Made by a program: the position numbers and the translations under genes
NCBI GenBank assembly: GCA_017937865.1
Contig: JAGBCU010000045.1
Location: 1-64,000, forward strand
Direction of reading: 5' to 3'
Source: Clostridia bacterium
GTDB taxonomy: Bacteria; Bacillota; Clostridia; Oscillospirales; Acutalibacteraceae
DNA: 64,000 nt
Part shown: one piece after another, positions 694 to 51,597 of the stretch
How the letters are laid out: every line of letters begins with the position of its first letter
Numbering within the stretch: the stretch's first letter is position 1
Notes under the pieces: generated by a model
Told to the model about the DNA's origin: nothing
What the model saw: only the letters and a program-made list of their open reading frames with translations
Databases searched by the model: none

Positions 694-3600
694 ATGAAAA
701 AAGGACTTTCGCTTTTCCTTGCGCTCCTTATGGTAGTGCTGGTGTTTTCACCTGCATTTCCGTCATTAGGGATTGTTGCAAGTGCAGCAAGCACGTTCCC
801 GGTTGAGCTTGCCTTTAACAACCTCTTCATATTTGAGGATTGGGCAACCAACTCATTATCGTCAACGGTAATCGTTGACGGAGTCGCTCAATCCAAAGAT
901 GCAAATCTTTTGGAAACTGATATTGAGAACGGTAGCTTTACATTTTATAAAAAAGATATGGCTGCTGCCGAAACTTATACAGCATTCTCAATGAGTGAGA
1001 CTGATGCTGCATTCAACAGCAAGTATTATATGATGTCAGTTGAGCCGAATACAAAGTATACTTTTTCATACAACGTACAGGGTACTATTTGGGAGTTCAC
1101 CCCAATCGTATTTATGTATGATAATCAGGGCTTGTTTGATGGTCTCGATACAATGGTGGCATACGGCACACCCGGCTACGGCAATAATAGCTTTGATTTT
1201 ACTACACCTGCTGATGTAACAGCAATTCAGATCCGTTTCACTATCGGTGATGATACTGGTTCCAGAGGTGCAGATGTAACTGAGGTTTATGCAAATGTTT
1301 CAGACATTGCTATTTACAAAACCGAATTGAAGGAAGCTTATCTTGCTGACCAGAATATGTTCAGCCTTGAGGATTGGGCAAATAATGCAAGCTCATCAAC
1401 TACACCATCTTCTAATTTGGGTACCGTAACACCGAATGTGTCAGATGGTAGTATAAGATTTGTGAATTCCGGCACAGGTTATTTGTGGACCGGTTTCGGA
1501 GTAGATCAGGGAAATAGTAACGATGCTTACTATACAATGACGGTTTCTCCTAATACCAGTTATACTTTAACCTATGATCTTACCGACCAAAACCTTCTTG
1601 GTCCTATATACTGTCAGCCGTTTATTGTTGAAATGAGAGATGACGGAACATGCATAACTTATTATGCTAATCCAACCGCAAGTCTTTCTAACAAGTTCCA
1701 ATTCACTACTCAAGCAGAAACGGTGCGCATTCAGCTTGTATTTGCACTCATTACTGATGGGGATAACACTGCAAGTGCTGAAAATCCACGATACGTTACT
1801 GTAAATAACATCGGCATTTATGAAACTTCTGTTTTCAGTGTTGACTTTGAAACAATTACAGGTCATACTCACCGTGCGGCTTATTCATACACCACAGGTA
1901 GTAGCGATAACGGTACATACGGAACTCTTCCTACTCCTTCATACGTTCCTGAAAACTATGTTTTTGCCGGTTGGTATACAGGTAAAGACGGTACAGGTGA
2001 ATACATTTCTGCTGATACAGAGGTTTCATATTCAAGCTATACCGTTTACCCCAAATTTGAACCTAAGGTAGATACACTTACAATTACTACTCCTCCCTCT
2101 AAAATTGAATACACACTTGGTGAAAAGCTTAACACAGCAGGTCTTGTTCTTACTGCAACTATTAACTATATGAAACAGGAAGATACAGACAACGACGGTG
2201 TAGTTGATACAGAAACACCGGCTGTTAATACTTTTAACATTACTTCCGGTTATCGTTGCACACCCGAGTATTTAACTGCCGAAGGCACTCAGGCTATTAC
2301 TGTTGCATACGGCGGAATGACTGCAACCTTTAACGTTAACGTTAGCCCTTATAACGAAAAAAATATTACCGTTAACGGAGCTACACATCCCGTTACGGTA
2401 GCAAACAATAATTATACTATTGAATATAGTGGTACTCCCTTTAACCGTTACGAATTAAATTATTATTCTGACAGTTACGTTAAAGGCGTTATCACAATGG
2501 ATGCGGATACAGAGGAATTCTTCCTTGAGCCCTCCGATAACGGCCATTTCGCTTCATATATTGACAGCTTCCTCAGAGGTATTAAGCATTATTCAGTTGT
2601 ATCAATTGAATTTACTTGCCTTGATAATGAATACGGTAATTTTGAATTGTTCTCAGTAACAACAATTGATTCACCCGTACCCTCTGACCCCACCCAGTAC
2701 TACCAGAACGACGAATACAAGGTTGGTATCAGCCTTGACTACGGCGGTGTTGTAAGCTATATCGAAGACCTTGATGATGACGTTAGTGCCGCTGTTTATA
2801 ACGAAAACGGCAAGGATATTACAAGGGTTGACTATACAAGCAAGCTGCCTTCAGGCGCAACTGCGACAAGCAACAGCGTTAACCTTATTAATACAAACGA
2901 CCGCGGTCGTTACCTTCAGCAGTCTTACTACGGTACTGATCAGCCCCCTTATGAAATGGGTAGCTATAACGGAATTCCTTGGTCATACAACCCTGTTCAG
3001 GGTGGTAACATCAGTACCTTTGATCCCGGAACAGGTGAAGTTATCAAGGGTGCTGAAGCAAGTAAGGTTATTGACTACCGAATTACTGCAGATCAGATTT
3101 ATATTAAAACCCGTCCTCTTGACTGGGGTAAAAACTCAGAGGATTACCCCGATTCTTACGTTACAGACTCCTATATGGAGGCTTGGTATACCTTTGAAAA
3201 CGGTATGATTAAAACAACCTGCCGTTTCGTTGACTACTCAGGCTATCCTTCGAATACAACAACTCAGGAATACCCCGCACTTTATACAATCGAGCCTCTT
3301 AACCATTTCGTTTATAACGAAACTACAGAAGCTAAAGCTTGGGAAGCAGCAAGCATTGCATGGCAAACTGATGGTATGAAAAATATCGAAGAGCCTGATT
3401 TCTGGGGTGTATTGCCTGAATATAATGCATTACTTAAAGCAAACGGTATGTCTGAGGTAGACGTAGACGTTGACTGTTATGAAAACTGGGCTGCCTTTAC
3501 AGCAAGTGCAGATACAGACAGCTTCGGTATCGGTGTTTATTCAGCAGGTATAACAGACTTCCATTACGGTGTTTTCCCTGCAATTTATAATGAAGACCAG

Positions 3601-6600
3601 GTTAAACAAGGTAATCTTGTAGCAAACTACAGACACGCAGCTTCTCTTGACCCTGCTATTGAAAGCCCCACTTCATATATTTCTCCCGTTGGTACAATGA
3701 CATTTGAAAGCTATAAGCCTTCAACTTATTCATTCTACGTAACAACAGGTACTGCCGACCAGATTCGTGAGGACTTCAGAAAGGTTGAATCAATTGAGTC
3801 GGCTGAGGCACTTGCACAGACTAAGGTTGCAGTTCCTGAAACTGTTTATATGGCTCCCGTTGACGGTGCTTCAACAGTTGGTGAAATATACGTTAACAAT
3901 ATCTTAGATTCAAACGATTTCTACAATGTTACAACCCTTGCAGAGCGTGAAGATAATATGTATTTCGGTATTCATATTGCTGACGCTGCATACTTCACAG
4001 TTGACGTTTCAAACGCTACGAATCCTTCTAACGATATCAACTTGTGCACAACAGGTGGTTCTGCTGTCAGCACAACTCAGCAATTTGAGTTTGACCCCAA
4101 CGATAACTTTATTAATGACGGTCAGTATGAATTGAGATTCAGCGGTACGGGACTTAACCCCGGCGAAAAGGCTACTGCTAAATGGGATATAACCGTTACA
4201 ATGGATGACGGTACAACTCAAAAGTATGCGTATTATACTGTTTTGTATGCTCCGGAGCGTACAGTCGGTGCAGTTGCAGAGGGTCGTTATGATAGTTCTG
4301 CAAACAATGAGATTTCATCATGGATTACAGGTGCAAACGGTGTTGATCACTCCCAGCGAGCTCCGTTAGGTACATTGAAGGGTGACGTTCACGACTCCGG
4401 TTATTTCGTATACGATCCTTTGATATATACAACTCCGCAAACACCGGCAGGTGCAGCAAGCCAAAATTCACATGACTATATTATTAGTATTGATGAAAGC
4501 CAATTGAATGATAACGGTGCACACGAAACAGACGATTTTAGCGATACTGCTTACGTTCTTGCGACCGGTACCGATGCTCAAGACCATTCAAGAGCTCAAA
4601 GCTACCTTGGTCTTCTTAAGGTTGATAAATCTCGTTATACAAACACTAACCAAATTCCAAACCTTGAAATAGGTTTTGATATTTTGAGAGTTGGCAGTGG
4701 CGCTCCAAAAGATTCACTTCGTACTTATACAACATACTACACATTAGGTACAGAGAGCTCCTTTACTCCAACAACAGATTACAGTGCAGCACCCAGCGGT
4801 TGGACTACACATAGTGGTCCATACACCGATTTTGCGGGTAGTAATTCAATTCCGTACAGAGAAACAGTGATTCCTTCATACAGTGTTTCGGATATAGATG
4901 GTAAATATATTCATGCGTTGAATCAGGGTGATGCTGTTAACTTTTTGAACAGCGACAATAAATATGCAACTGCCGGTACATCACTCCTTTGCTCTGTTAC
5001 TGATAAGAGCGGTCTTCGTGAGTCAGTACTTACAGGCTACGGCATAACTGATACTAACCCTGAATTTGATGAATCACTTGAAAACGCAGCAACCGTTCTC
5101 GGTGACCCCTCTGCAACTCAGGAAGAAATTGATAACGCAAAGAAAGAGCTTAACGATGCAATGCAGGAAAAGGTTGATACCTACTACGCATTGAAATACG
5201 ATAATATCTTCAGTGTTTACGAATTCTCTCAGAAGTCTGACAGTATGAAGGTTGTTGCTGACAGAGGTACAGCTACCTATAGCAACGGTGCTCTTACAGT
5301 TGTTAACGACACAATAACAGGTGGCGAAGCATATACAAACTATGGCTCAGCAGACGGTTATTACCACGTTGATTTGAAGCCTAACACAGAATACGTATTT
5401 GAATATGACGTTACAACAGACCTTAAAGCTCAGGCGTTTATGTTCTTCTATAATTCAACCGGCGGTAACGGTGATGTTCCTACAAACATCTCCGTTCAGA
5501 CAAACGGCGGTCAATGGGTTCCAAGAACTGAAAGCAACTCTTGGTGGGGTAATTACACTAACAGTGCAGGTACTTATCACTATGCTGTAAGATTCACTAC
5601 CGGTGCTAATACAGTAAAAGCCGGCTTCCGTTTCGGTAATACAAGTAACGACCCCGTAACTTCAACCTTCAGCAATATTAAGCTTGTTGATGTTGCTCAT
5701 TACTATGCAAATGCAACGTATAGCAAAACTGAGGAGCTCTTTAAGGAATACACTTCTTACGGTGCTATGATAACACCCGTAAGACCCGGTTATACACTTG
5801 CAGGCTGGCAGGATGCAAACGGCGTTGCTGTTACAGGTGCGGATATTGCAACAGAGCATAAGAGCATTTATTCAGTATGGAATGAAAATTCTTATACCGT
5901 TAACTATGATAAAAACGGTGCTGATGAAGGCTCAGCCGATGCAAAGATTTTCAAATATACAGAAGAGTTTACTCTTCCTGATGATTTCTCAAGAGATTAT
6001 TATATGTTTAAGGGCTGGGCGTACGAGGCTGATGCAACAGCACCTGTATTTACTCCCGGTCAGACTATCTCATTTGCAGATATTAAGGCAGATGAAATTG
6101 ACTCTAATAATCAGGTTACTCTTTATGCCGTATGGGAAAAAGGATATTCATTGTATTACTCACCCAACAACGGTACAGGTGAGCTTGCAGGAACATTTAA
6201 GGGTTATACTGAACCTCATACAATTAAAGAGAATACAACTATAACAAGAGAAGGTTATACCTTCCTCGGTTGGTCTCTTGACCAGAATGCAACAGCTCCT
6301 AGCTATTATGCAGGCGACGAGTTGACAGTAAGTGCAATTGACTCTAAGTATATTCAGAAGGATACAAGCAACGAGTTACAAACATACGTAGTTCTTCACG
6401 CTGTTTGGTCTGAGCATAAATACGGTATTGCCTTTAATGCAAACGGCGGTTCAGGTGAAATGGCAGCTATGCCGAATATCGGCTATGATGACGGTACAAC
6501 TCTTACCGCTAACAGCTTTACAAAAGAAGGCTACACCTTTAACGGTTGGAATACAGCCGCTAACGGTTCAGGCACAAGCTATGCAGATAAAGAAAACGTA

Positions 6601-9588
6601 TCAAAGCTTACAGCAGATGATAACGCTAACGTAACTCTTTACGCTCAGTGGAAGGCAAACAGCTATACCGTAAGATTTAATGCTAATACAGGCTCAGGTA
6701 CAATGAGTGACCTTGCTATGACCTACGACGTTGCAAAGAATCTTACTGCAAACGCATTTACTAAAGAGGGCTATGCTTTCATGGGTTGGAGTACAACTCC
6801 TGACGGTGAGGTTGTTTACAAGAACGGCGATAGCGTTAAGAATCTTACAGCTACTAATGGTGAAGTAATTAACCTTTATGCTGTATGGGCTCAGCCTACC
6901 GTAAACGTTACATTTGATAACCTTGTAGATATCAGTGCTTGGTCAGATACCGTAAATAACGGTACGTTAGTAAACTACAGCGATATAGGCTTTACGGTTA
7001 AATCAAATGCGGATGCAGGCGAAGCAACCTGTTCTTCAGCATATTTCCCAATTACAGTTGGTGAAAAATACGTAGTTGAAGCTGATATCAAGGGTACCGG
7101 TTGGGATATTTACGTATTCTTCTGCGATGATGCAGGTAACTGGGTTGAGTTTAGTGACGGTACTAACAGATTCTCTTCTGACGGCAAAAACGTTGCTGAG
7201 ACTAACGGAATTCACGTAAAATCTATTGAATTTACTGCTCCTGCAGGTGCAACTAAGGTTCAGCTTCGTGTTGATGCCAATAATGCTAATAATGCAGTAA
7301 GATTTGAAAATATCCGTGCTTATAACGTGAAAGATGCAACTTATCTTGAAACTGTTAACAAATACGTGAAGTATTCTGATACTTACGGCAAGCTTCCCGT
7401 TCCCGTAAAAGAGGGTCAGCAGTTCCTCGGTTGGGTAGACGGTAACGATAATATGGTAACCGCTGATTCAATAATGAACAGCACAAGCACTGTATACCTT
7501 AAATCAACATGGACAGTTAACTCAAACACAGCTAACGATGATACAGTTGTTATTGAATACGGTCTTCCTGTTGTAATTGACCTTCTTTCAAACGATAAAG
7601 GCGGTACAGTAACAGGTATCGGTAAAAACGGCGTAAGTGCTTCAGACCTTGGTAAAGTAAGCCATCCTTCAAGTATACTTACTGATAAAGCAAGCTCACT
7701 TACATTAACTAACGGTACTGCTGAGCTTGATAACAACGGAAAAGTTACTTACACACCTTCAAAAACAAACGTTGCAGCTGAAGAAGTATTCTTCTACGAG
7801 GTAAGTGTTGACGGAGTATTCTACTACGCTAAGGTAACAATTATCCCTGCTACAACAATTTATTTTGAAGACACGTTCTTTACGTTTGAAGATTCTTCAG
7901 TAACAAAGAACGGTACAACATACAACTATAACTGGCAGAATCTCGGTACGTCTGTAGGCGAGGTATTCCAGAGTGCTGACAGACCCGGTGCATTCAATTT
8001 CGCAGATGATGCAAATAACGTTTACGGTTATGATTCATCTTTTGATGATAAAGTAGCATATTCAGGCGGTACAGCTCATTTCGTTGAGGTTGACCAGATT
8101 GCAGGTACTGCTGCACCTAAGGCTGTATTTACTTTTACAGGTACAGGCTTCGACTTATTCAGCGTAACTGATAACAAGTCAGGTACAGTAACCGTAACAA
8201 TTTACAACGGTACTGAAGTTGATGCTTCAAAACGTGTTCAGGGTATAATGGCAAACGCTTACTTCGGTTATAGCTATGATAGTGAAAATGATAGTTATAC
8301 TCCTTCAGATAACGGTGCTCTTTTCCAGGTACCCCTTATCCGTGCACGTGACCTCGGCTATGGCACATATACTGTAGTTGTAAGTCCCAGATACAACAAG
8401 GCGTTTGACGTTGCAGGAACCGGTAAAGCAGGCGTTTACGTTGATTCTGTTAGAATCTACGACCCCATGGGCAGCGGTAATGCAACAGCAAACGACGCCT
8501 ATATGGCAGACGGTGAATATGCACCTCAGTTCCTTGAAATACGTGATACACTTGTATTGCCGATAAAAGACAGTAATGGCAAATTTACAGGTGAGTATAA
8601 TATTACAGAAATTCAAGAATATAATAAATCTGTATTCATTGATGGTGGCAAAACAACAATGGCTGATTTTATAAAATCAGGTCCTAAGAACGAGGTTTAC
8701 CTTCAGAACGGTAACTCTGTTGCGTTCCATATCGTAACAGACAGAGCTGACTTACCTTCAACAATTCAGCTTGGTATGAGCCTTGCAGGTAAGGACGGTT
8801 CAAGTGCTAACGTTAGATTAATGAATACCGCTTACAATAGTTGGGTTGAAAACATAACTCTTAACAGCACTTCTGAACGTTATTACAACATTGAAGCTGT
8901 TGTTGATTGGGTAGAGCAGAGTGACGGTACTTATAAAACTGCATCACCTGTTGTAATTACAAATACATCAGATGCTATCGTTTCACTTACATCGCTTAAA
9001 TGGGCATTTGACAGTGAAGATACTAATGCAACTGTTCTCAGCCTTATGTCAGATATGGATACACCTGAATTAGCAAAGGCAGCAATTATGCGTATGGCTA
9101 ATCCTCAGGTTACTCCTCAGCAGACAATACTTAGCAGAGATAATATTACCTATAGCTTCTCAGGCGAGCCCTATGCTCCCGGTGATTCCGGAATTCTTAC
9201 AATTACTACAGAGCAGGGTGTTTCAGGCGTTACTGTTAACGGAACAGACGTTTTCGACTGTGAGCTTAATTCAGACGGCAAATTAGAATGGTCTTGTGAA
9301 TTTACTGCAGAAGCAGCAGATTCAATGACCTTTGAGATTGTTGCACGTGATGAAAATGGCTTCACAAGCGAGTCTATTTACGCTACAACTGATATTGACA
9401 ACAATACAGATGATAACGATAATGAAGCTACAGAGCCTGACGGTGATGAATCTGATGATACTACAGGCGATTCAGGTAATAATAACGTTGTTACTAGTCC
9501 CGAATCATTCGTAACTACTCTTCTTAACGGTATATTTAATATCATAAGAAAATTATTAGGTGCTATTTTAGGAGGTGCTACAGTATGA
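694..9588 (+). CDS. Giant secreted multidomain surface protein (2964 aa)
   Basis: The protein starts with a signal peptide (Lys-Lys, hydrophobic core, cleavage near Ala-Ser-Ala-Ala at about 31-34). Four CBM-like beta-sandwich modules lie at about 40-210, 218-383, 1505-1666 and 2070-2216, and modules 2-4 are each followed by InlB-type (Listeria-Bacteroides) repeats. Five of those repeats form a block at about 1669-2068 with GW and YAVW signatures. An Ig-like Big_3 domain sits at about 460-549. A large sheet-rich region at about 663-1036 carries an NPVQGG motif. A FIVAR-like helical segment (about 1460-1498), a cadherin/VCBS-like domain (about 2281-2386) and a jelly-roll-like region (about 2388-2596) follow. 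An acidic linker (about 2901-2933) precedes a hydrophobic/amphipathic C-terminus. There is no LPXTG motif or S-layer homology domain. AGGAGG lies 11 bases before the ATG. Its likely role is glycan binding or adhesion; no catalytic site is evident. Confidence 0.9.
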   Translation: MKKGLSLFLALLMVVLVFSPAFPSLGIVASAASTFPVELAFNNLFIFEDWATNSLSSTVIVDGVAQSKDANLLETDIENGSFTFYKKDMAAAETYTAFSMSETDAAFNSKYYMMSVEPNTKYTFSYNVQGTIWEFTPIVFMYDNQGLFDGLDTMVAYGTPGYGNNSFDFTTPADVTAIQIRFTIGDDTGSRGADVTEVYANVSDIAIYKTELKEAYLADQNMFSLEDWANNASSSTTPSSNLGTVTPNVSDGSIRFVNSGTGYLWTGFGVDQGNSNDAYYTMTVSPNTSYTLTYDLTDQNLLGPIYCQPFIVEMRDDGTCITYYANPTASLSNKFQFTTQAETVRIQLVFALITDGDNTASAENPRYVTVNNIGIYETSVFSVDFETITGHTHRAAYSYTTGSSDNGTYGTLPTPSYVPENYVFAGWYTGKDGTGEYISADTEVSYSSYTVYPKFEPKVDTLTITTPPSKIEYTLGEKLNTAGLVLTATINYMKQEDTDNDGVVDTETPAVNTFNITSGYRCTPEYLTAEGTQAITVAYGGMTATFNVNVSPYNEKNITVNGATHPVTVANNNYTIEYSGTPFNRYELNYYSDSYVKGVITMDADTEEFFLEPSDNGHFASYIDSFLRGIKHYSVVSIEFTCLDNEYGNFELFSVTTIDSPVPSDPTQYYQNDEYKVGISLDYGGVVSYIEDLDDDVSAAVYNENGKDITRVDYTSKLPSGATATSNSVNLINTNDRGRYLQQSYYGTDQPPYEMGSYNGIPWSYNPVQGGNISTFDPGTGEVIKGAEASKVIDYRITADQIYIKTRPLDWGKNSEDYPDSYVTDSYMEAWYTFENGMIKTTCRFVDYSGYPSNTTTQEYPALYTIEPLNHFVYNETTEAKAWEAASIAWQTDGMKNIEEPDFWGVLPEYNALLKANGMSEVDVDVDCYENWAAFTASADTDSFGIGVYSAGITDFHYGVFPAIYNEDQVKQGNLVANYRHAASLDPAIESPTSYISPVGTMTFESYKPSTYSFYVTTGTADQIREDFRKVESIESAEALAQTKVAVPETVYMAPVDGASTVGEIYVNNILDSNDFYNVTTLAEREDNMYFGIHIADAAYFTVDVSNATNPSNDINLCTTGGSAVSTTQQFEFDPNDNFINDGQYELRFSGTGLNPGEKATAKWDITVTMDDGTTQKYAYYTVLYAPERTVGAVAEGRYDSSANNEISSWITGANGVDHSQRAPLGTLKGDVHDSGYFVYDPLIYTTPQTPAGAASQNSHDYIISIDESQLNDNGAHETDDFSDTAYVLATGTDAQDHSRAQSYLGLLKVDKSRYTNTNQIPNLEIGFDILRVGSGAPKDSLRTYTTYYTLGTESSFTPTTDYSAAPSGWTTHSGPYTDFAGSNSIPYRETVIPSYSVSDIDGKYIHALNQGDAVNFLNSDNKYATAGTSLLCSVTDKSGLRESVLTGYGITDTNPEFDESLENAATVLGDPSATQEEIDNAKKELNDAMQEKVDTYYALKYDNIFSVYEFSQKSDSMKVVADRGTATYSNGALTVVNDTITGGEAYTNYGSADGYYHVDLKPNTEYVFEYDVTTDLKAQAFMFFYNSTGGNGDVPTNISVQTNGGQWVPRTESNSWWGNYTNSAGTYHYAVRFTTGANTVKAGFRFGNTSNDPVTSTFSNIKLVDVAHYYANATYSKTEELFKEYTSYGAMITPVRPGYTLAGWQDANGVAVTGADIATEHKSIYSVWNENSYTVNYDKNGADEGSADAKIFKYTEEFTLPDDFSRDYYMFKGWAYEADATAPVFTPGQTISFADIKADEIDSNNQVTLYAVWEKGYSLYYSPNNGTGELAGTFKGYTEPHTIKENTTITREGYTFLGWSLDQNATAPSYYAGDELTVSAIDSKYIQKDTSNELQTYVVLHAVWSEHKYGIAFNANGGSGEMAAMPNIGYDDGTTLTANSFTKEGYTFNGWNTAANGSGTSYADKENVSKLTADDNANVTLYAQWKANSYTVRFNANTGSGTMSDLAMTYDVAKNLTANAFTKEGYAFMGWSTTPDGEVVYKNGDSVKNLTATNGEVINLYAVWAQPTVNVTFDNLVDISAWSDTVNNGTLVNYSDIGFTVKSNADAGEATCSSAYFPITVGEKYVVEADIKGTGWDIYVFFCDDAGNWVEFSDGTNRFSSDGKNVAETNGIHVKSIEFTAPAGATKVQLRVDANNANNAVRFENIRAYNVKDATYLETVNKYVKYSDTYGKLPVPVKEGQQFLGWVDGNDNMVTADSIMNSTSTVYLKSTWTVNSNTANDDTVVIEYGLPVVIDLLSNDKGGTVTGIGKNGVSASDLGKVSHPSSILTDKASSLTLTNGTAELDNNGKVTYTPSKTNVAAEEVFFYEVSVDGVFYYAKVTIIPATTIYFEDTFFTFEDSSVTKNGTTYNYNWQNLGTSVGEVFQSADRPGAFNFADDANNVYGYDSSFDDKVAYSGGTAHFVEVDQIAGTAAPKAVFTFTGTGFDLFSVTDNKSGTVTVTIYNGTEVDASKRVQGIMANAYFGYSYDSENDSYTPSDNGALFQVPLIRARDLGYGTYTVVVSPRYNKAFDVAGTGKAGVYVDSVRIYDPMGSGNATANDAYMADGEYAPQFLEIRDTLVLPIKDSNGKFTGEYNITEIQEYNKSVFIDGGKTTMADFIKSGPKNEVYLQNGNSVAFHIVTDRADLPSTIQLGMSLAGKDGSSANVRLMNTAYNSWVENITLNSTSERYYNIEAVVDWVEQSDGTYKTASPVVITNTSDAIVSLTSLKWAFDSEDTNATVLSLMSDMDTPELAKAAIMRMANPQVTPQQTILSRDNITYSFSGEPYAPGDSGILTITTEQGVSGVTVNGTDVFDCELNSDGKLEWSCEFTAEAADSMTFEIVARDENGFTSESIYATTDIDNNTDDNDNEATEPDGDESDDTTGDSGNNNVVTSPESFVTTLLNGIFNIIRKLLGAILGGATV

Positions 9589-9824
9589 AAAATTATATAA
9601 AGCCTTCAATTTCATTCCAATTTTTCAATCTGGCAACAGGTGTTTCTGACGGATGCAATATGTCAGCTAACAGTGCTCCGTATCAGTGCCCTGTTGAAAT
9701 CCCGAACTGGCCCGGTGAAACCGTTTTTACAGCTTCTGCGTGTACTTGGGCAACCAACAACCCGGAAGAGTTTGACATTTGCTATCAAGGTCCCACAGGT
9801 ATAGTAAGTGTTTTAGGTTCTTGA
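9585..9824 (+). CDS. Small four-cysteine peptide, putative RiPP precursor (79 aa)
   Basis: The ATG overlaps the stop of the giant surface gene (ATGA), and AGGAGG sits inside that gene's 3' end, so the two are translationally coupled. The peptide has no signal sequence. It begins MKNYIKPSISF, a Lys/Tyr/Pro-rich start that I recall from small gut-Clostridia peptides. Its cysteines are at 24, 35, 53 and 66, in a Gly/Ser/Asn/Pro-rich body, and it ends in Leu-Gly-Ser. Four genes for an HprK-like kinase, a radical SAM-SPASM enzyme, a PqqD-like chaperone and a lipoprotein follow. By analogy with RiPP pathways this is the likely substrate, with residues 1 to about 23 as leader. The function is inferred; it could instead be a small structural partner of the surface protein. 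Confidence 0.75.
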   Translation: MKNYIKPSISFQFFNLATGVSDGCNMSANSAPYQCPVEIPNWPGETVFTASACTWATNNPEEFDICYQGPTGIVSVLGS

Positions 9825-9831
9825 TTAACCA

Positions 9832-9863
9832 AAGCCGAGCTCACTTTTTAAGTGGCTCGGCTT
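9832..9863 (+). terminator. Intra-operon hairpin (attenuator/partial terminator)
   Basis: AAGCCGAGC pairs with GCTCGGCTT, and an inner CACT/AGTG pair encloses a T-rich loop, making a very stable stem. The following bases (TGTTGTTGT) are U-rich but not a clean U run. It probably lowers transcription of the modification genes relative to the surface protein and peptide, or protects the upstream mRNA 3' end. Confidence 0.7.
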
Positions 9864-9883
9864 GTTGTTGTATTGGAGAAATT

Positions 9884-10555
9884 ATGAAAAGTTTTAAAAA
9901 ACTAATCGCAGGATTTTTGTGTCTTAGCATAATTTTACTTTGCGGTTGTACAACTGATAAAAAGGGTACGAAAAAATTTCACGGCTACGAATTTCCTGCA
10001 GCCGTTTATGATGGCATTTCTGTTGAGGATTGCTATCTTTATTCGGGTGAGTATGTTGAAGATGCATCGTTTGAAAGCTGTGAAAACGTTGTAGCTCTTA
10101 AGGTTAAAAATACATCTTTAGTTGATATACAATTAATACGTCTAAAGGTTACAACCGATGCTAAGGAAATGATGTTTGAAATCTCAACTCTTCTTGCAGG
10201 AGAAACCGTTGTAGTGCTTGAAAAATCAAAGCAGACAATAGAAGAAAAAGAAAAAATACTTAGCATTGATTATGAAAACCGAATCTTTTTTGATAGGGAC
10301 ATTTCTCTTAAAGAAGACGTTTTTATGTTGCAGGTAAATCAAAAAACTATAAATATTAAAAACATTTCCCAAACTGAAATCGAGTCAGATATTTACGTTT
10401 ATTATAAGAAAAAGGATGCTGACGGAAACTATTTCGGAGGTATAACCTTCCGTACAAAAGCAGAGGGCTTGAAGCCTGATGAGATAAAACAGCTTCCTGC
10501 AGCAAATTTTGACCCTGATAACAGTGAGGTGCTTTTTGTAGATTATGCAAAATAA
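9884..10555 (+). CDS. Lipoprotein of the peptide-modification cassette (223 aa)
   Basis: The start at 9884 has GGAG at about 9875-9878 and gives a signal peptide ending in the lipobox LCGC, followed by a Thr-Thr-Asp-Lys-Lys tether. An in-frame upstream extension lies inside the preceding gene and hairpin and is not credible. The mature part (about 200 aa) is beta-rich with charged strands and looks like an Ig/FxLYD-type extracellular domain. No catalytic motif is seen. It sits between the putative precursor and the modifying enzymes, and its 3' end overlaps the next gene by 11 bp. It could be a surface receptor, immunity protein or anchor for the peptide or giant protein; this is inference. 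Confidence 0.8.
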   Translation: MKSFKKLIAGFLCLSIILLCGCTTDKKGTKKFHGYEFPAAVYDGISVEDCYLYSGEYVEDASFESCENVVALKVKNTSLVDIQLIRLKVTTDAKEMMFEISTLLAGETVVVLEKSKQTIEEKEKILSIDYENRIFFDRDISLKEDVFMLQVNQKTINIKNISQTEIESDIYVYYKKKDADGNYFGGITFRTKAEGLKPDEIKQLPAANFDPDNSEVLFVDYAK

Positions 10556-11378
10556 AAAGTACGTTTTTTGTGATTGTGCTATTGAAATAAAGCACCAAAA
10601 CCCTATTTTAAAGAAGAATAATTACAGTCTTTTCCTTGAAGATTTTGAAACTCCTGATTTTTCGGTTGAGGTTATTGACGACGAAAAGCTCCCTGAAAAA
10701 AAGGGACAACGTCTTTTTAAGGGTGAACTAAACGAAGTTTATCTTGACGGTGAAACGATGAAAACTTATTCTGCTTTTCCTATAGGTAAAGAGCAGATTG
10801 CAAAGGATTTTGCCTGTAGAGTTAATAACGAAAAATTATTTATTTCTTTTTATAAAGAAACTAATGAGTTTTTAGTTTTTGAAGGCTTACGACTTCCTGA
10901 TTTACTTCTTTCAAAGGGTATCGGTATTCTGCACTGCTCTTTTATTGAGGTGGAAGGGCAGGCTATCCTTTTCGCAGGAGATAAGCAGGTTGGAAAATCA
11001 ACTCAGGCTTCTCTTTGGGAAAAATATGCAGGTGCTACCGTTATAAACGGTGACAGAGCAGGTCTTTTTATAAAAAACGGCAAAATAATGGCAGGCGGTG
11101 TGCCTTATTGTGGCACTTCGGGGATTTGTAAAAACAAACAAATGCCCTTGAAGGCTATTGTTTGCCCTTCAATAGGTAAAGAAAACGAATTAAAAATGCT
11201 TTCGCCAATGGAAAGCTTTACGTTCCTTTTAGGTAAATTTGCTTATAATACATGGAATCCGTCAGAAGTTAATGCTATAACAGACCTTCTTACTATTGTT
11301 GTAGAGAGCGTACCGATTTACAGTTATAGTTGCCTTAAGGATGAATCTGCGGTGAGATATCTTTCAGAAAGGATTTAA
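10545..11378 (+). CDS. HPr-kinase-like (HprK/ScmC-type) protein, putative peptide kinase (277 aa)
   Basis: The Walker A motif GDKQVGKST is at residues 145-153, preceded by LHCSFIEVEGQAILF and followed by an NGD motif (about 168-170) and GGVPYCGTSG (about 184-193). This is the layout of HprK-related proteins found in RiPP clusters, such as SynChlorMet ScmC and lasso-peptide kinases, rather than true HPr kinase of sugar regulation. The start overlaps the lipoprotein gene by 11 bp and the radical SAM gene begins 3 bases after its stop, so it is in the same transcript. In the paeninodin lasso pathway such a kinase phosphorylates a C-terminal Ser, and the peptide upstream ends in Ser. Catalysis here is unproven. 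Confidence 0.8.
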   Translation: MQNKKYVFCDCAIEIKHQNPILKKNNYSLFLEDFETPDFSVEVIDDEKLPEKKGQRLFKGELNEVYLDGETMKTYSAFPIGKEQIAKDFACRVNNEKLFISFYKETNEFLVFEGLRLPDLLLSKGIGILHCSFIEVEGQAILFAGDKQVGKSTQASLWEKYAGATVINGDRAGLFIKNGKIMAGGVPYCGTSGICKNKQMPLKAIVCPSIGKENELKMLSPMESFTFLLGKFAYNTWNPSEVNAITDLLTIVVESVPIYSYSCLKDESAVRYLSERI

Positions 11379-11381
11379 ATT

Positions 11382-12533
11382 ATGGATGTTGAAAAGCTTA
11401 TAAATAGGGCTGTTGTGAATACTGAGCCTATGTTTTCGGCATATCTTCATTCAAGAGGAAATGCTGCAGGCGTGCCTGTTTCAGCAACCTTTGAATTAAC
11501 CGCACGTTGTAATTTTAACTGTAAAATGTGTTACGTTCATTTGCAGGATTCAGCACTCTGTAAGTCTCAGGAAAAAAGTGCTCAATGGTGGATTGATTTA
11601 GGCAAAAAAGCGATTGAACAAGGCGTTGTTTTTTTACTTATTACGGGCGGTGAACCGCTTCTTCGTGAGGATTTTCCTGAAATTTATACTGAGCTTTCGA
11701 AGCTCGGGTTTATTATATCTATCAACACAAACGGCTATCTTATAACAGATAAAATTGTTGAGCTTTTTAAGAAAAATCCACCTACGAGATTAAATATTTC
11801 ACTTTACGGTGCAAGCAATAAAACGTACGAAAACGTTACGGGTGTGCCTGCGTTTTCAAGGGTTGTAGAGAATGTGAAAAATCTCAAAAAGATGGGTATA
11901 GATATCCGTTTTAACGGTAGCTTTACAAGCCTTAATGCAGAGGATTCAGAGGCTATTTTAAATATAAGCAGAGAGCTTAATACTCATGTTAAAGGTACAC
12001 AGTATATGTTTCCTCAAGTACTGGTTGGCGGAAAACCCGGTGAAAATCCCTGCCGTCTTTCTCCTGAAGAGGCTGCTCGTAAACGTGTTGAGTGGCTTAA
12101 ATTAATTTACACTCCGGAAGAGTTTGAAAAACGTCTTAAAGCTATGGTTGACGGCGTTGATGCTTTCCGGCTTTCCTGTGATGAGGAGTGTGGCGAAGGC
12201 AAAGTCAGATGCCGTGCAGGTAAAAGCAGTGCGTGGATAAATTACCGAGGTGAAATGTGCTTTTGCGGTGTTGCAGGTCATCCTTTCAGCATTGATGAGT
12301 ATGGCTTTGACGGCGCTTGGAAAAAGGTAAAGGAATTTTCAGCATCAATAAGAACACCGGCTAAATGCGAAAACTGTAAATACAGAAATATCTGTTGCGT
12401 TTGTGCTGCAGCTTGTTATACCGAAACGGGTAATTTTTCAACTGTTCCGGAGTACGTATGCCGTATGACAGAGAATATAGCTCAGCTTATGAAAAATGAA
12501 GTGGAAAGGCTTGGAATTGGTAATGGAAATTAA
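11382..12533 (+). CDS. Radical SAM enzyme with SPASM domain, peptide maturase (383 aa)
   Basis: The canonical CxxxCxxC cluster ligands are Cys43, Cys47 and Cys50 (CNFNCKMC). ITGGEPLL, about 50 residues later, is the SAM-binding GGE motif. The C-terminal third is a cysteine-rich SPASM domain (CRAG near 277, MCFCG near 293, then CENCKYRNICCVCAAAC near 330) expected to bind auxiliary Fe-S clusters. Family members introduce thioether, C-C or similar cross-links, or epimers, in ribosomal peptides. The gene is packed 3 bp behind the HprK-like gene and overlaps the PqqD-like gene by 11 bp. The natural substrate candidate is the peptide at 9585. The chemistry cannot be told from sequence. Confidence 0.9.
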   Translation: MDVEKLINRAVVNTEPMFSAYLHSRGNAAGVPVSATFELTARCNFNCKMCYVHLQDSALCKSQEKSAQWWIDLGKKAIEQGVVFLLITGGEPLLREDFPEIYTELSKLGFIISINTNGYLITDKIVELFKKNPPTRLNISLYGASNKTYENVTGVPAFSRVVENVKNLKKMGIDIRFNGSFTSLNAEDSEAILNISRELNTHVKGTQYMFPQVLVGGKPGENPCRLSPEEAARKRVEWLKLIYTPEEFEKRLKAMVDGVDAFRLSCDEECGEGKVRCRAGKSSAWINYRGEMCFCGVAGHPFSIDEYGFDGAWKKVKEFSASIRTPAKCENCKYRNICCVCAAACYTETGNFSTVPEYVCRMTENIAQLMKNEVERLGIGNGN

Positions 12534-12783
12534 AAAACAAGTCATTTTAAGAAGTGTTGCAGGGGAGCATATGCTTATACCTGTAGGTGAAACTGTTTTT
12601 GAGTATAACGGTATTTTTATGATGACCGAAAGCGGAAAGCTTCTTTGGGAAAATATCGAAAAAGGTGCCGAAGAAAATGACCTGAAAGAATTGCTTATGC
12701 AAGAGTATGAAATAGATTCGGAAACGGCTTTAAACGACGTGAAGGAGTTTCTGGAAATGCTCAAAGCATTTGGCATAATTTAA
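12523..12783 (+). CDS. PqqD-family peptide chaperone / RRE protein (86 aa)
   Basis: This is a short winged-helix-type RiPP recognition element: LRSVAGEHMLIPVGE, then SGKLLWENIEKG and a helical C-terminus ending in LKAFGII, the pattern of PqqD family proteins. Such proteins bind the leader of a precursor peptide and present it to the radical SAM maturase. An upstream in-frame ATG at 12496 would add nine residues inside the maturase gene. The Met at 12523 (MEIKK) fits the family start better and gives the same 11-bp overlap seen earlier in the operon. It is the last gene before a strong terminator. Confidence 0.85.
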   Translation: MEIKKQVILRSVAGEHMLIPVGETVFEYNGIFMMTESGKLLWENIEKGAEENDLKELLMQEYEIDSETALNDVKEFLEMLKAFGII

Positions 12784-12791
12784 TATAATGA

Positions 12792-12848
12792 AAAATCGTG
12801 AAAACCGTTGAATTTACAACAGTTTTCACGATTTTTTGTTTTTGAATT
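12792..12848 (+). terminator. Rho-independent terminator of the surface/peptide operon
   Basis: AAATCGTGAAAAC/GTTTTCACGATTT arms, extended by CGTTG/CAAC with one mismatch, enclose a short loop and run into TTTTTTGTTTTTG. It separates the peptide-modification operon from the polysaccharide operon. Confidence 0.9.
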
Positions 12849-12897: not shown

Positions 12898-12942
12898 TTG
12901 ACAATTTATTGCTATATATAGTATTATATAATTTGGTATAAT
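12898..12942 (+). promoter_or_regulatory. Promoter(s) of the polysaccharide operon
   Basis: A consensus TTGACA at 12898-12903 is 18 bp from TATTAT at 12922-12927. A second, extended -10 element (TGGTATAAT) ends at 12942. Either could drive the long gene string from 12974, whose first ribosome site (AGGAGG) is at about 12961-12966. No intrinsic terminator is visible within the cluster until 40283. Confidence 0.75.
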
Positions 12943-12973: not shown

Positions 12974-13696
12974 ATGGTTGATATTCACTGTCACATTCTT
13001 CACGGTATTGATGACGGTGCGGAGAATTTCGACACCTCGTTTGAAATGGCGAAGCTTGCCGTTGAGAGTGGTACAACTGAAATTTTTGCAACTCCTCATG
13101 CTAATATACCTGATACTGAATGCATAAACACTTCAGCAACTGTTTCAGAAAAAGTAAATAGCTTTAATGAAATTCTTGTTCGAGAGGGTGTACCGCTTAA
13201 GATATATACCGGTTGCGAGATATTTGCTGCAGGTGATTTTATTAAGCTTTTAAAAAAAGGAAATCTTCTTACACTTAATAATTCAAATTACGTTCTTGTA
13301 GAATTTGACTTTTTTGAGCATCACGCATCAGTTTTTATGAAGCTTGAAGAGCTTTTAAGCGAAGGCTATATTCCCGTGGTAGCTCATCCGGAAAGATATG
13401 CTTTCATTGAAGAGGATGAGAATTGCATTAACATAATCAAAAATATGGGTTGCCTTATCCAATGCAACAAGGGTAGCGTTACAGGTAGATTCGGACATTC
13501 TGCTAAATTTATTGCTCACGAAATGCTTGTAAGGGAGCAAGTTGATTTTATTGCGAGTGATGCTCACAGCTCACGTATGAGAACACCGATACTTACAGAT
13601 GCTTACCAAATGGTGTGTGAGCTTTATAACAAAGATTATGCCGATTTGTTATTTGATATTAATCCGAGAAAAATTTTGAATCACGAAAAAATATAA
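12974..13696 (+). CDS. cpsB: CpsB/YwqE-type PHP-domain tyrosine phosphatase (240 aa)
   Basis: The metal-binding residues of the PHP fold are visible: His5 and His7 (IHCHIL), DDGA at 13-16, His42 in ATPHAN, His138 in VVAHPERY, and SDAHS with Asp196 and His198. CpsB-type enzymes are Mn-dependent phosphotyrosine phosphatases that dephosphorylate the tyrosine tail of the partner BY-kinase and thereby set polysaccharide chain length and output. The length is normal for the family. It is the first gene of the operon, followed two genes later by two BY-kinases with tyrosine-rich tails, which are its expected substrates. Confidence 0.92.
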   Translation: MVDIHCHILHGIDDGAENFDTSFEMAKLAVESGTTEIFATPHANIPDTECINTSATVSEKVNSFNEILVREGVPLKIYTGCEIFAAGDFIKLLKKGNLLTLNNSNYVLVEFDFFEHHASVFMKLEELLSEGYIPVVAHPERYAFIEEDENCINIIKNMGCLIQCNKGSVTGRFGHSAKFIAHEMLVREQVDFIASDAHSSRMRTPILTDAYQMVCELYNKDYADLLFDINPRKILNHEKI

Positions 13697-13711
13697 TCCG
13701 AGGGGTTTTAA

Positions 13712-14530
13712 ATGAAAATTTTAAGAATTGGTGTTGTAATACTTTTCGTTATAATATCCGTAATTTTCGGTTGGATGTATATTGATGAAAAGATAAATGC
13801 TGATAAAACAATTCCGGTTATCGAAATTGAAAGCGATGTGCTTGAGGTCAGCATTAATGCGGATAATGAAGAACTGTTACAGGGCGTTACGGCTTACGAT
13901 GAAAAAGATAAAGATATTACCCACAAGATAATAGTTGAGTCTGTTTCAAATTTTATTGACGATGGTGTTTGTAAAGTTACTTATGCCGTTTGTGATAACG
14001 ATAACCACGTTGCTAAGAAAACGAGAAAGATAAAATATAAAGATTACATTTCGCCTCGTTTTTCAGTTTCGGAATCAACCTGCTATTCCATATATGAGAA
14101 GATAAATCTTTTGTCTGTTATTAGTGCTGAGGATTGTATCGACGGCGATATTTCAAAGCAAATTATCCTCACGTCAGAAAACTATACAAAATCTGTAGCC
14201 GGTGTGTTTTCGGTAAATGCAACTGTTACTAATAAAAAAGGTGACGTTTCAACAATCGTTTTACCTTTGATTATTGAAGACCGTAGCTTATCTGCTCCCG
14301 TAATTGAGCTTGAAAGTTATCTCATTTACGTTGAAAAAGGTGAGGAAGTTAATTTAGAAGATTATATCGTAAAAGCAACTGATGATAAAGAAAACGATTT
14401 AACAGATGAGGTCAGGGTTGAATCAAAAATCAATTTTGATAAAGAAGGCACATATACCGTTCATTATTACGTAACAGACGAAGAAGGGCTTAAGGGTCAC
14501 TCAATAATGTCTGTAGTTGTTGGGAACTGA
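13712..14530 (+). CDS. Membrane-anchored protein with Ig-like repeats (272 aa)
   Basis: An N-terminal transmembrane helix (about 5-25) is followed by three Ig-like modules of the Cry22/DUF5011 or HYR type. Signatures are VTAYDEKDKDITHKI, AEDCIDGDISKQI and KATDDKENDLTDEV, each about 85 residues. The protein has no enzymatic motif and should project outside the membrane. Its place between the phosphatase and the first Wzz/BY-kinase suggests a structural or polysaccharide-guiding role in export. That is inference; the family is common on Gram-positive surfaces. Confidence 0.8.
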   Translation: MKILRIGVVILFVIISVIFGWMYIDEKINADKTIPVIEIESDVLEVSINADNEELLQGVTAYDEKDKDITHKIIVESVSNFIDDGVCKVTYAVCDNDNHVAKKTRKIKYKDYISPRFSVSESTCYSIYEKINLLSVISAEDCIDGDISKQIILTSENYTKSVAGVFSVNATVTNKKGDVSTIVLPLIIEDRSLSAPVIELESYLIYVEKGEEVNLEDYIVKATDDKENDLTDEVRVESKINFDKEGTYTVHYYVTDEEGLKGHSIMSVVVGN

Positions 14531-14535
14531 TTTTT

Positions 14536-15981
14536 ATGAATAAGAATTTAATTACAATTGAATGGCATAGCTTGGTTAAAGATATTATAAAAAACCTTTG
14601 GATTGTTTTATTGGCGGCAATAATGGGTTATATGGGTATTTTTATCGCATCAAAGAGTGTGTACAAGCCTGAGTACACATCGAGTGCTATGCTTGTTGTT
14701 AACTCCGGTACGGGCACTAATAACGGTTATTCGTCTTACGCTGTTTCAAGCGAGATGGCAAACGTTCTTACAAACGTATTCGTTCAACCGGCAATGAAAG
14801 CAAAGGCGGCTGAGTTCGCCGGCAAGGATAGTTTCAGAGGTTCTGTTTCTGCAGCTGTTTTGTCATCTACTAATTTTATTGAAGTAAGCGTTACTTCAGA
14901 TGATCCTCAAAACTCTTATGAATTACTTTCGGCAATTCTTGAGGTTTACCCCGAAATATCTGAAAATGTTTTTGAAAATGCAAAGATTAGCGTGTTAAGG
15001 CTTCCTTCGATGGCAACTAAGCCTTCGAACTCTTCGTCATACGAAAACAGAGAGCTTATCATTGGTGGTTGTGTGACTGTTGCTTTATTTGCGATTGTTG
15101 TTCTCTCAATAATCCGTGATACCGTAAAAAATGAAGATTCGTTTGAAAACAAAATTGATGCAAAGCTCGTAGGGTGTATAGTTCATGAGAAAAAGAGTTT
15201 AACCCTTAAAGATAAGTTGAAAAAGAAAAAACGAGGTTTGCTTATTGACAGTAGCTGTTTTGTATCCTTAAGCTTTGCCGAGAGCTTCAGTAAAATTGCT
15301 GCGAAAATTGAGTATACAAGAAATGAAAAGGGCAGTCGGGTTTATGCAATTTCAAGTGTAACGGAAAATGAGGGTAAATCTACGTGTGCTGCAAATATTG
15401 CATTGTCACTTGCCAATCGCGGTCATAAAGTTATACTTATTGATTTGGATTGCAAAAAGCCTGCTCTTTATAAAATTTTTAATCAAAAATACAGTGAGAA
15501 CCGTGAGCTTGCAAATCTCTTTAACGGTAAAATAAAGAAAGAAGATTTTAAATTCAAAAAATTAAATAAAAAATCTCTTTTACTTGCGTTGAATACAAAA
15601 CCCTATCCTGAATACAATGATTGGTTTTCTTCTCGCAAGGTCGTGAGCTTCGTTGATGATTTAAAAGAGTATGCTGATTTTATAATTATAGATACTGCGC
15701 CATTTTCTGCGGATTCTTCTGTAACAAGTGTTATGGGCTTTGCTGATGAAACCATGCTTGTTGTGAGAACTGACTGTGTTGTGGCGCCTGCTATAAATGA
15801 TGCTGTTTCTTTAGTAGAAAAAGTAAGCAAAAGCTTTATGGGGTGTATCCTTAACGATATTTACCCGAAAGCTACACCGTTTTTCTTCTCAGGCAATGAT
15901 CAGAGTATACAGTATGGTCATTACGGTAAGTATAAAGGCTATGGTAAATACGGCAAATACGGTGGCTACGGAAAATATTAA
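14536..15981 (+). CDS. Wzz-BY-kinase fusion 1, polysaccharide co-polymerase and tyrosine kinase (481 aa)
   Basis: A Wzz/CpsC-type domain with two membrane helices (about 17-40 and 173-195) is fused to a BY-kinase. The kinase shows Walker A TENEGKST (about 276-283), Walker A' LIDLDCKKP (about 300-308) and Walker B IIIDTAPF. The C-terminus carries eight tyrosines in a Gly/Lys context (GKYGKY type). In most Firmicutes these two parts are separate (CpsC/CpsD), so the fusion resembles proteobacterial Wzc. Phosphorylation cycles of the tail, reversed by the PHP phosphatase, are expected to control chain length. A second paralogue follows 46 bp downstream. Confidence 0.9.
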   Translation: MNKNLITIEWHSLVKDIIKNLWIVLLAAIMGYMGIFIASKSVYKPEYTSSAMLVVNSGTGTNNGYSSYAVSSEMANVLTNVFVQPAMKAKAAEFAGKDSFRGSVSAAVLSSTNFIEVSVTSDDPQNSYELLSAILEVYPEISENVFENAKISVLRLPSMATKPSNSSSYENRELIIGGCVTVALFAIVVLSIIRDTVKNEDSFENKIDAKLVGCIVHEKKSLTLKDKLKKKKRGLLIDSSCFVSLSFAESFSKIAAKIEYTRNEKGSRVYAISSVTENEGKSTCAANIALSLANRGHKVILIDLDCKKPALYKIFNQKYSENRELANLFNGKIKKEDFKFKKLNKKSLLLALNTKPYPEYNDWFSSRKVVSFVDDLKEYADFIIIDTAPFSADSSVTSVMGFADETMLVVRTDCVVAPAINDAVSLVEKVSKSFMGCILNDIYPKATPFFFSGNDQSIQYGHYGKYKGYGKYGKYGGYGKY

Positions 15982-16027
15982 GCGTTATCAGTATAAAAAC
16001 ATCATTTTATGAAAGAAAGAGTTTGCT

Positions 16028-17476
16028 ATGAATAAATCTGACAAAAAAGATTTTCGTAACACAAAAGAAACATACGTAAAGATATACCTCAGTGATATTG
16101 TAAAGGGAATTAAAAAATTCTGGTGGTTATGTATTGTAGTGGCAATTATTACTGCAAGCGCTAAGGTTGCTATGACAGTCTATGAGCATACGCCTGTTTA
16201 CAAAGCTTCAGCAACAGTAACGGTGAGTACGCAGAATTCATCTACCGATTTAGGCGGTCTTTCTGTATATTCGTTTTATTACGATACCTCTACTGCTTCG
16301 CAGCTGTCATCAACTTTCCCTTACATTCTTGCAAGCAATCTTTTACAAGATGCGGTGTGCGAAGATTTAGATATTGAATATATGCCGGTAAGCCTCAGTG
16401 CTACTGTAGTAGAAAGCTCCAATATGTTCACGATTACTGCAACGGGAAGTGACCCACAGCTTACGTACGACGTATTGCTGTCTAGCGTTGAAAACTATCC
16501 TGCGGTTGCTAAGTACGTTGTGGGTAACATTCGGTTTGAAATAATAACTCCACCGGTAGTACCTACAACGCCTTCAAATCCGATAGATTACACTACTGAA
16601 ATTATGGTTGGCGTTGTTTTGGGGTTTGCTGTTGGCTTTATTATAATTTTCATTTACGTAATTCAGCGTAAGACAATAAAAACGAAGAAGGATATAAAGC
16701 AGGAACTTAATCTTGAAACAATAGCGGTAATACCGGAAGTTACAAGAAAAAAGAGAACAGTTGCTATTTCTCAAAAACTGACTATTACGTCTCAGAATAT
16801 TAATTCTGCTTTCGCGGAGTCTTTCAGAGTTATGCGAAACGTCTTTTTAGCATCACTTGAGGACGACGAAAAAATTGTTATGGTAACAAGCTCTGTTCCC
16901 GGTGAAGGTAAAACTACAGTTATCACAAATCTTGCGTTATCGCTTTCTGAAAACGGTAAAAAGGTGTTGCTTGTAGATGCAGACGTCAGAAACCCCAGCA
17001 TTCTCGAGCTGTTGAACGTAAACGAAGAAGAGATGGATTTTGTAGTTGAACCTGAATTATATAAAAAGACGTTTATTGATGAATATAACGTTCATTTTAT
17101 GGTTCCGCTTTCCACAAAGGATGAAAAATTATTCTCAAGAAAATTAAATCAGATTTTTGAGAGTATGAAAAACGACTATGATTATATTCTAGTAGATACT
17201 CCGCCAACAGGTCTTATTTCAGATGCAATGTATATTTCTCAGGCTTGTGATGCTGTTTTGTACGTTGTTTCTCAGGATGTTGTTAAAGTATCAAGAATAC
17301 GAAGCAACATAGATAACCTTATGGCAACAGATGTAAGAATTCTCGGTTGCGTGCTTAACGGTGTAGCTAACGGCTTTGGTAGCTACGGTTACGGCTATGG
17401 CGGTTATGGTTACGGCGGTTACGGTTATGGCGGTTACGGTTACGGCTACGGTAAGAAAAAACGCAAGAAACGGTAA
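16028..17476 (+). CDS. Wzz-BY-kinase fusion 2 (482 aa)
   Basis: It has the same architecture as the preceding gene: membrane helices at about 30-52 and 191-215, Walker A VPGEGKTT (about 290-297), Walker A' LLVDADVRNP and Walker B ILVDTPP. The tail is different: ten tyrosines in a strict GYGYGG pattern followed by a basic KKKRKKR end. The tail is encoded by a tandem DNA repeat at about 17376-17452, which could expand or contract. It is clearly diverged from fusion 1, so this is an old duplication or independent acquisition. Two co-polymerases could give two chain lengths or form a mixed complex. Confidence 0.9.
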   Translation: MNKSDKKDFRNTKETYVKIYLSDIVKGIKKFWWLCIVVAIITASAKVAMTVYEHTPVYKASATVTVSTQNSSTDLGGLSVYSFYYDTSTASQLSSTFPYILASNLLQDAVCEDLDIEYMPVSLSATVVESSNMFTITATGSDPQLTYDVLLSSVENYPAVAKYVVGNIRFEIITPPVVPTTPSNPIDYTTEIMVGVVLGFAVGFIIIFIYVIQRKTIKTKKDIKQELNLETIAVIPEVTRKKRTVAISQKLTITSQNINSAFAESFRVMRNVFLASLEDDEKIVMVTSSVPGEGKTTVITNLALSLSENGKKVLLVDADVRNPSILELLNVNEEEMDFVVEPELYKKTFIDEYNVHFMVPLSTKDEKLFSRKLNQIFESMKNDYDYILVDTPPTGLISDAMYISQACDAVLYVVSQDVVKVSRIRSNIDNLMATDVRILGCVLNGVANGFGSYGYGYGGYGYGGYGYGGYGYGYGKKKRKKR

Positions 17477-17509
17477 AACTTTAAATTAAAAAAGTAAGGA
17501 GGGTGCAAA

Positions 17510-19222: not shown

Positions 19223-19289
19223 AAACAGCTAAGGAAAATATTTGTAAATCTGGAAAGATGTTGCAAAATTATATAAAAGGAGAATGACA

Positions 19290-39047: not shown

Positions 39048-39069
39048 TTTAAATTTTGGAGTTATAAAT

Positions 39070-50911: not shown

Positions 50912-50920
50912 TTGCCAAGT

Positions 50921-51014
50921 ATAACTTGGCAGCGATATAAATCCTTACGGATTTGCGATATATCCGATGATGCGATATACCTACGGTGCGATATGTGCCT
51001 GACGGCACGAGAAA
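50921..51014 (+). repeat. 94-bp direct repeat, left copy
   Basis: It is identical over 94 bp to 51466-51559. It contains four GCGATAT units (50932, 50955, 50972, 50988) separated by small hairpins such as AATCC-TTAC-GGATT and GTGCC-TGAC-GGCAC. Its first bases pair with TGCCAAG just upstream (50913-50919 with CTTGGCA). Confidence 0.9.
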
Positions 51015-51121
51015 GAGGATTTATATCATATCGCATTTGCGGAGCAAATATATCGCAATCGACAACATGTCGATTATATCGCATTTTGTGTGAACAAAAT
51101 ATATCGCAGAGAGGAAATTTT

Positions 51122-51469: not shown

Positions 51470-51559
51470 CTTGGCAGCGATATAAATCCTTACGGATTTG
51501 CGATATATCCGATGATGCGATATACCTACGGTGCGATATGTGCCTGACGGCACGAGAAA
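51466..51559 (+). repeat. 94-bp direct repeat, right copy
   Basis: This is a perfect copy of 50921-51014. It starts at the last codon of the four-helix-bundle gene and ends one base before a terminator hairpin. It lacks the inverted ATATCGC array present on the left. Confidence 0.9.
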
Positions 51560-51560
51560 A

Positions 51561-51596: not shown

Positions 51597-51597
51597 A

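Follow-up and report, generated by a model that had tools for sequence, protein, structure and literature searches.

Why should the gene of a small cysteine-rich peptide, accompanied by a set of putative peptide-modifying enzymes, be joined to that of a giant surface protein? The question is raised by positions 694-12783 of a 64,000-nucleotide stretch (the window; contig JAGBCU010000045.1, assembly GCA_017937865.1) from the 2.15-Mb draft genome of a Clostridia bacterium. Six co-directional genes, overlapping or separated by short gaps and closed by a terminator, encode in order a giant secreted protein, the peptide, a lipoprotein, an HprK-like kinase, a radical S-adenosylmethionine (rSAM) enzyme of SPASM type and a PqqD-like recognition element (RRE) of the sort found with ribosomally synthesized and post-translationally modified peptides (RiPPs). 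Here we document the recurrence of this cassette, the regular pairing of the peptide with a conserved C-terminal module of the giant, the covariation of the two, and the residues conserved in the peptide and its predicted maturation enzymes. The meaning that we consider most likely, with a probability somewhat above even, is that peptide and giant form a working partnership at the cell surface.

The stop codon of the giant gene and the start codon of the peptide gene overlap as ATGA. A preliminary description had reported the six-gene operon, the 79-residue four-Cys peptide coupled in this way, a hairpin behind it and a strong terminator at the end; all of these open reading frames (ORFs) were recovered, and both predicted RNA folds surpass those of shuffled sequences (Table 1). 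Cassettes of this kind occur in about 25-30 genomes of gut Clostridia and so cannot be a chance arrangement. In a scan with the rSAM enzyme as query, which retrieved 63 loci, the nearest relatives of the cassette came from Clostridia metagenome-assembled genomes, many from herbivore guts. Where a giant is present, the usual order is giant, peptide, lipoprotein, kinase, rSAM enzyme and RRE, with a variant in which giant, lipoprotein and RRE precede peptide, kinase and rSAM enzyme. A lipoprotein profile applied to 394 genomes of the same order was positive in eight, that of the window included. The four strong new loci inspected each contain a giant, a peptide ending in Ser, a kinase, an rSAM enzyme and an RRE, while four further matches (loci L087-L090) are lone or partial, so that the six-gene set is not found in every genome with the lipoprotein. 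The co-occurrence across genomes that the preliminary description proposed as a check is borne out; the peptide is conserved beside the maturase, and no rival conserved precursor stands there.

The association with the giant resides in one part of that protein. A stretch of about 517 residues near its C-terminus (window residues 2282-2798), to which no Pfam family corresponds, is homologous across 31 loci, although the remainder of these proteins differs widely: the N-terminal parts carry, in one case or another, GH2, GH20, GH43, endonuclease I, MucBP, VWA or lectin domains, Pfam places List_Bact_rpt repeats in the giant of the window, and the C-terminal ends carry an amphipathic helix, LPXTG-like sequences, SLH domains or others. 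The module is rare, occurring in 12 of 394 genomes of the order, 3 of 391 of the class and 13 of 148 relatives, and only once in the genome of the window. The 3' flank could be read for 44 module genes: the next gene encoded a YxxP...C peptide in 36, and in three more the peptide followed two genes on, after lipoprotein and RRE; part of this set was found via the rSAM enzyme, which favors cassettes, a bias from which searches with the module alone are free. Such a search revealed a second class of peptides (L153-L159), overlooked by the peptide profile. Two giant-peptide pairs (L094, L119) have no adjacent maturase and a full set elsewhere in the same genome; in such cases maturation seems to take place in trans. 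Lipoprotein and module co-occur (p 1e-7 by genome, 5e-6 by genus), and distances among peptides follow those among modules (Mantel r 0.84, n 35), with partial correlations of 0.44 given rSAM and 0.41 given HprK distances (n 25). The pairing of the peptide with the C-terminal module is well supported by these observations. The link to the giant put forward in the preliminary description thus stands and has become specific to this module, despite varied N-termini and anchors; the role suggested there for the peptide, as a cross-link, anchor or cap, received no support from the analysis.

A 683-residue model of the module region (mean predicted local distance difference test score, pLDDT, 79) gives structural matches at the level of domains only, the best being a CBM35/6-like sandwich (Z 13.8 to 3nqh over 124 residues, root-mean-square deviation 2.5), from which we would guess that the module may bind carbohydrate. 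The amphipathic helix tail of the window giant recurs in giants of L011, L015, L037, L048, L091-L093 and L153-L159; such a tail on secreted proteins is possibly a surface-retention signal. Several arrangements of giants and related proteins may be recorded here. One locus (L162:1-8872, genome G036) has two module giants in tandem with a 4-nt overlap and no peptide between them. In another (L027:4800-11300), the 3' end of the giant and the peptide are duplicated and inverted, flanking the maturation genes (412 nt at 98% and 277 nt at 100% identity), an arrangement that could be invertible or gene-converting; this giant is split by a frame break. Secreted proteins of about 1450-1580 residues resembling GH2 glycosidases, with 57-62% pairwise identity, lie beside or within the cassettes of L120, L122 and L043.

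The peptide, which matches no Pfam or NCBIfam family at cut-off, is very probably a RiPP precursor. Y4, P7, C24 and C53 are invariant in all 47 aligned peptides, C35 and C66 are present in 42, and position 9, Ile in the window, is I, L or V in most; with Y4 and P7 in 47/47, the peptides match the leader motif YxxPxL of lasso precursors. The core beyond this leader comprises about 55 residues. Its last residue is Ser in 44 of the 47, and in the other three Ser is second to last; eight further peptides from the module-only search all end in Ser, which raises the total to 52/55 against a background Ser frequency of 8.6%. Among 24 complete peptides found after this rule had been noticed, 22 end in Ser and two have it second to last. 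The peptide of L096 ends early through a frame break, a Ser-ended C-terminus being visible in another frame. The rule covers the giant class and L044-L047 only, since the small ORFs of the sister cassettes L049-L065, which are excluded from it, have no C-terminal Ser. Those sister cassettes, arranged as PqqD, rSAM enzyme, small ORF, HprK (with a signal peptidase in some), ABC exporter and NTP_transf_5, sit inside exopolysaccharide (EPS) loci of Lachnospiraceae, Olsenella and others.

Of the predicted maturation proteins, the rSAM enzyme matches PF04055 (Radical_SAM; 1.2e-24), and C43, C47 and C50 of its CxxxCxxC motif are invariant, as are seven C-terminal Cys of SPASM type among relatives; the SPASM assignment is based on these seven, as the Pfam SPASM model has no match. 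The RRE matches Pfam PqqD (1.4e-14), but its profile lies closer to lasso B1 structures (TbiB1 5v1u, 3.5e-13; TfuB1, 4.8e-8) than to PqqD itself (3g2b, 0.02), and it scores 32 bits against NCBIfam lasso_PqqD_Bac, below the 80-bit cut-off. In lasso pathways the leader, with its YxxPxL motif, is bound by the B1 protein, which can also accelerate phosphorylation (PMC10368454; PMC5067487). The HprK-like protein belongs to no Pfam or NCBIfam family at cut-off and aligns weakly with HprK/P (1jb1, E 0.006); H130, the P-loop K151 and D170 are invariant and correspond to the His, Lys and last Asp of the lasso-kinase His-Lys-Asp-Asp motif. Because the first Asp of that motif is missing, we regard the protein as a relative of the lasso kinases rather than a member. 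In lasso peptides the C-terminal Ser is the target of the kinases PadeK, ThcoK and PsmK, and the resulting phospho-Ser receives hexoses from PsmN (PMC9266682). With a conserved C-terminal Ser and a lasso-type leader in the peptide, the presence of a kinase becomes interpretable; the preliminary description mentions neither feature, nor the neighboring EPS genes. The lipoprotein model is all-beta, with two Ig-like domains (mean pLDDT 92.8); as its structural matches are generic Ig-like folds (Z <= 6.5), we deduce no function from them. A profile match of the lipoprotein to 14-3-3 (E 0.003) was rejected as chance in view of this fold. In L043 (4605-5030), a leader-like N-terminus, MKKEYQKPVV, is fused to a PqqD domain in a single protein.

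On our best reading of these sequences, an rSAM-cross-linked, C-terminally phosphorylated peptide would be the dedicated partner of the giant's module. We infer a two-gene core, module giant and peptide, served by a maturation set: the RRE (12523) would hold the leader by its Y-x-K-P-x-I motif, the rSAM-SPASM enzyme would cross-link the Cys-containing core in the cytoplasm, and the HprK-like kinase would phosphorylate the C-terminal Ser; after export and presumed removal of the leader, the product would come into contact with the giant's module and join it, with the two-domain lipoprotein, anchored in the membrane, as a putative helper at the surface. On this scheme the peptide would serve the giant as a small, modified subunit, by analogy with QhpC in quinohemoprotein amine dehydrogenase.

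Several observations weigh against this partnership. Five of the 44 module genes have no peptide nearby (L123-L125, from one genome with peptides elsewhere, L161 and L162); the covariation of peptide and module partly reflects shared descent; and the pairing of genes is no proof of physical contact. Nearly all of the kinases read NGD, with Gly in place of the first of the two paired Asp residues of lasso kinases; this makes activity uncertain, and it could be altered or lost. The kinase gene is not adjacent in L014, L017, L023, L025 and L030, yet the peptides of L025 and L030 retain the Ser. The six-gene operon contains no protease or exporter gene, and no C39 peptidase was found in the genome of the window.

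The peptide might instead be a stand-alone secreted RiPP, such as a bacteriocin or signal, with the giant next door a receptor, a decoy or irrelevant. Sactipeptide and ranthipeptide loci typically combine an rSAM enzyme and an RRE with a Cys-rich precursor, and the sister cassettes L044-L065 have ABC exporters and no giant. Yet the peptide tracks the module across very different giants, even where maturases are missing; its gene is sometimes coupled to the giant gene by ATGA; the cassette has no exporter or immunity gene; and module and peptide covary beyond what the rSAM and HprK proteins explain. We judge a free product unlikely.

Less probable still is that the C-terminal Ser, phosphorylated or sugar-phosphorylated, attaches to the capsule or EPS of the adjoining gene cluster, so that the peptide ties the giant to polysaccharide. 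The cross-linked core would then bind the module, and a phospho-Ser, later glycosylated, would be joined to EPS, so that giant enzymes and adhesins would be held at the capsule; we give this scheme a small chance. It draws on genomic position: an EPS cluster lies immediately downstream of the operon, or of a giant-peptide pair, both in the window and in six other loci (L035, L037, L094, L096, L153, L157). In the window that cluster begins 190 nt past the operon and has a promoter-like site of its own (12898-12927); it may be a mere neighbor. The scheme draws also on NTP_transf_5 nucleotidyltransferases, present in 17 of 18 module or peptide genomes against 60 of 197 genomes of the order (p 1.6e-7 by genome, and a weaker 8e-4 by genus), whose representative in the window is a candidate for modifying the phospho-Ser. 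PsmN is a putative member of this family. The gene lies 26 kb off in the window and is unlinked in other genomes. In lasso pathways PsmK and PsmN add phosphate and then hexoses to a C-terminal Ser (PMC9266682). The ABC exporter encoded in the EPS cluster is a candidate exporter of the peptide.

Processing of the peptide to a small redox cofactor is very improbable: PqqD with an rSAM-SPASM enzyme forms the core of the pyrroloquinoline quinone (PQQ) and mycofactocin pathways, but here the core has some 55 residues, four conserved Cys and a conserved C-terminus, no additional redox or peptidase genes accompany it, and the RRE is closer to lasso B1 than to PqqD.

Some other features of the window deserve mention. 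The hairpin between peptide and lipoprotein genes has no clean U-tract, for which reason its action as an attenuator is only a guess; for the lipoprotein, 9884 is the most likely start, in preference to the upstream TTG at 9779. Farther on, an ABC ATPase precedes a row of three large FtsX-like permeases of 918-940 residues (51673-60909), with a two-component system upstream (49347-50911); by eye, the genes in 49347-60909 resemble modules for sensing and resisting antimicrobial peptides.

Table 1. Coordinates of the operon, its parts and neighboring features in the window.
Feature	Position	Strand	Details
Giant secreted surface protein	694..9588	+	2964 aa; N-terminal signal peptide; six List_Bact repeats (best: residues 1910-1985)
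Conserved C-terminal module of giant	7537..9087	+	Residues 2282-2798; cadherin-like start and CBM35/CBM6-like beta-sandwich (about 7852-8463)
Ig-like domain after module	9118..9402	+	Model residues 528-622
C-terminal amphipathic helix tail of giant	9499..9573	+	Model residues 655-679; low local pLDDT
Ribosome-binding site of peptide, AGGAGG	9570..9575	+	Inside 3' end of giant gene; 9 nt upstream of peptide ATG
Precursor peptide	9585..9824	+	79 aa; Y4-x-K6-P7-x-I9 leader; Cys 24/35/53/66; C-terminal Ser79 (9819-9821)
RNA hairpin, peptide/lipoprotein gap	9832..9863	+	Folding -22.9 kcal/mol, z -4.7 against shuffles
Lipoprotein	9884..10555	+	223 aa; LLCGC; two Ig-like beta-sandwich domains
HprK-like peptide kinase (predicted)	10545..11378	+	H130; P-loop GDKQVGKS 145-152; N168-G169-D170
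Radical SAM enzyme	11382..12533	+	C43/C47/C50; seven SPASM-type Cys 277, 295, 329, 332, 338, 341, 360
PqqD-family RRE	12523..12783	+	Closest solved structures are lasso B1 proteins
Terminator hairpin, operon end	12787..12840	+	-24.8 kcal/mol, z -6.5 against shuffles; minus-strand reading also a terminator
Head of EPS/capsule cluster	12974..20018	+	CpsB, Ig-like protein, two Wzz/CpsD-type proteins, ABC exporter, sugar transferase
ABC exporter without C39 domain	17510..19222	+	Homologue directly after rSAM gene in L083, 37% identity
NTP_transf_5 nucleotidyltransferase	39010..40284	+	Family enriched in module/peptide genomes

A partnership at the surface would make the modified peptide a structural or functional partner of surface proteins, not a free-standing natural product, and would bring radical SAM chemistry together with recognition and phosphorylation of the lasso type. 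The sequence rule that emerges, a module beside a YxxP...C...Ser peptide, finds new cases, and the system offers a defined test of the role of kinases and nucleotidyltransferases in RiPP loci beside capsule genes.

The preliminary description knew of no characterized system with this layout, in agreement with the open-access literature, in which we found no description of one; most subscription papers and all preprints lay outside its coverage. The HPr-rel-A/SynChlorMet cassettes (NCBIfam TIGR04352, TIGR04353, TIGR04249) likewise combine an HprK-related protein with a PqqD-family chaperone, but the proteins described here match them weakly and below cut-off, and to our knowledge their definitions include neither a giant nor a Ser-ended precursor. 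Sactipeptides and ranthipeptides, for example ruminococcin C, share the rSAM-SPASM maturase, the Cys-rich core and an origin in gut Clostridia; the present operon differs in its extra kinase and lipoprotein, its regular giant neighbor and its lack of an exporter. With the phosphorylated lasso peptides (paeninodin with PadeK, ThcoK, SyanK, and pseudomycoidin with PsmK/PsmN) the cassette shares a Y-x-x-P-x-(L/I) leader, a discrete B1-type RRE, an HprK-like kinase, a C-terminal Ser and a nucleotidyltransferase gene in the same genomes. Identity with a lasso system was nonetheless rejected, as the B2 transglutaminase-like protease and the asparagine-synthetase-like C cyclase are absent from the window cassette and do not recur near its relatives; a radical SAM-SPASM enzyme takes their place, the core is a four-Cys peptide of about 55 residues tied to a giant, and the kinase has NGD where lasso kinases read Asp-Asp. 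Precedent for a peptide that serves a large protein is provided by QhpC, the thioether-cross-linked gamma subunit of quinohemoprotein amine dehydrogenase, and its enzyme QhpD: there too a small Cys-rich peptide is modified by an rSAM enzyme in the cytoplasm and joins a large exported protein of the same operon (PMC7876137). The present operon ends after pqqD, without a QhpE-like protease, QhpF exporter or QhpG monooxygenase; unlike that system, it adds a kinase and an RRE, and the large protein that it encodes belongs to the cell surface and has a domain resembling carbohydrate-binding modules.

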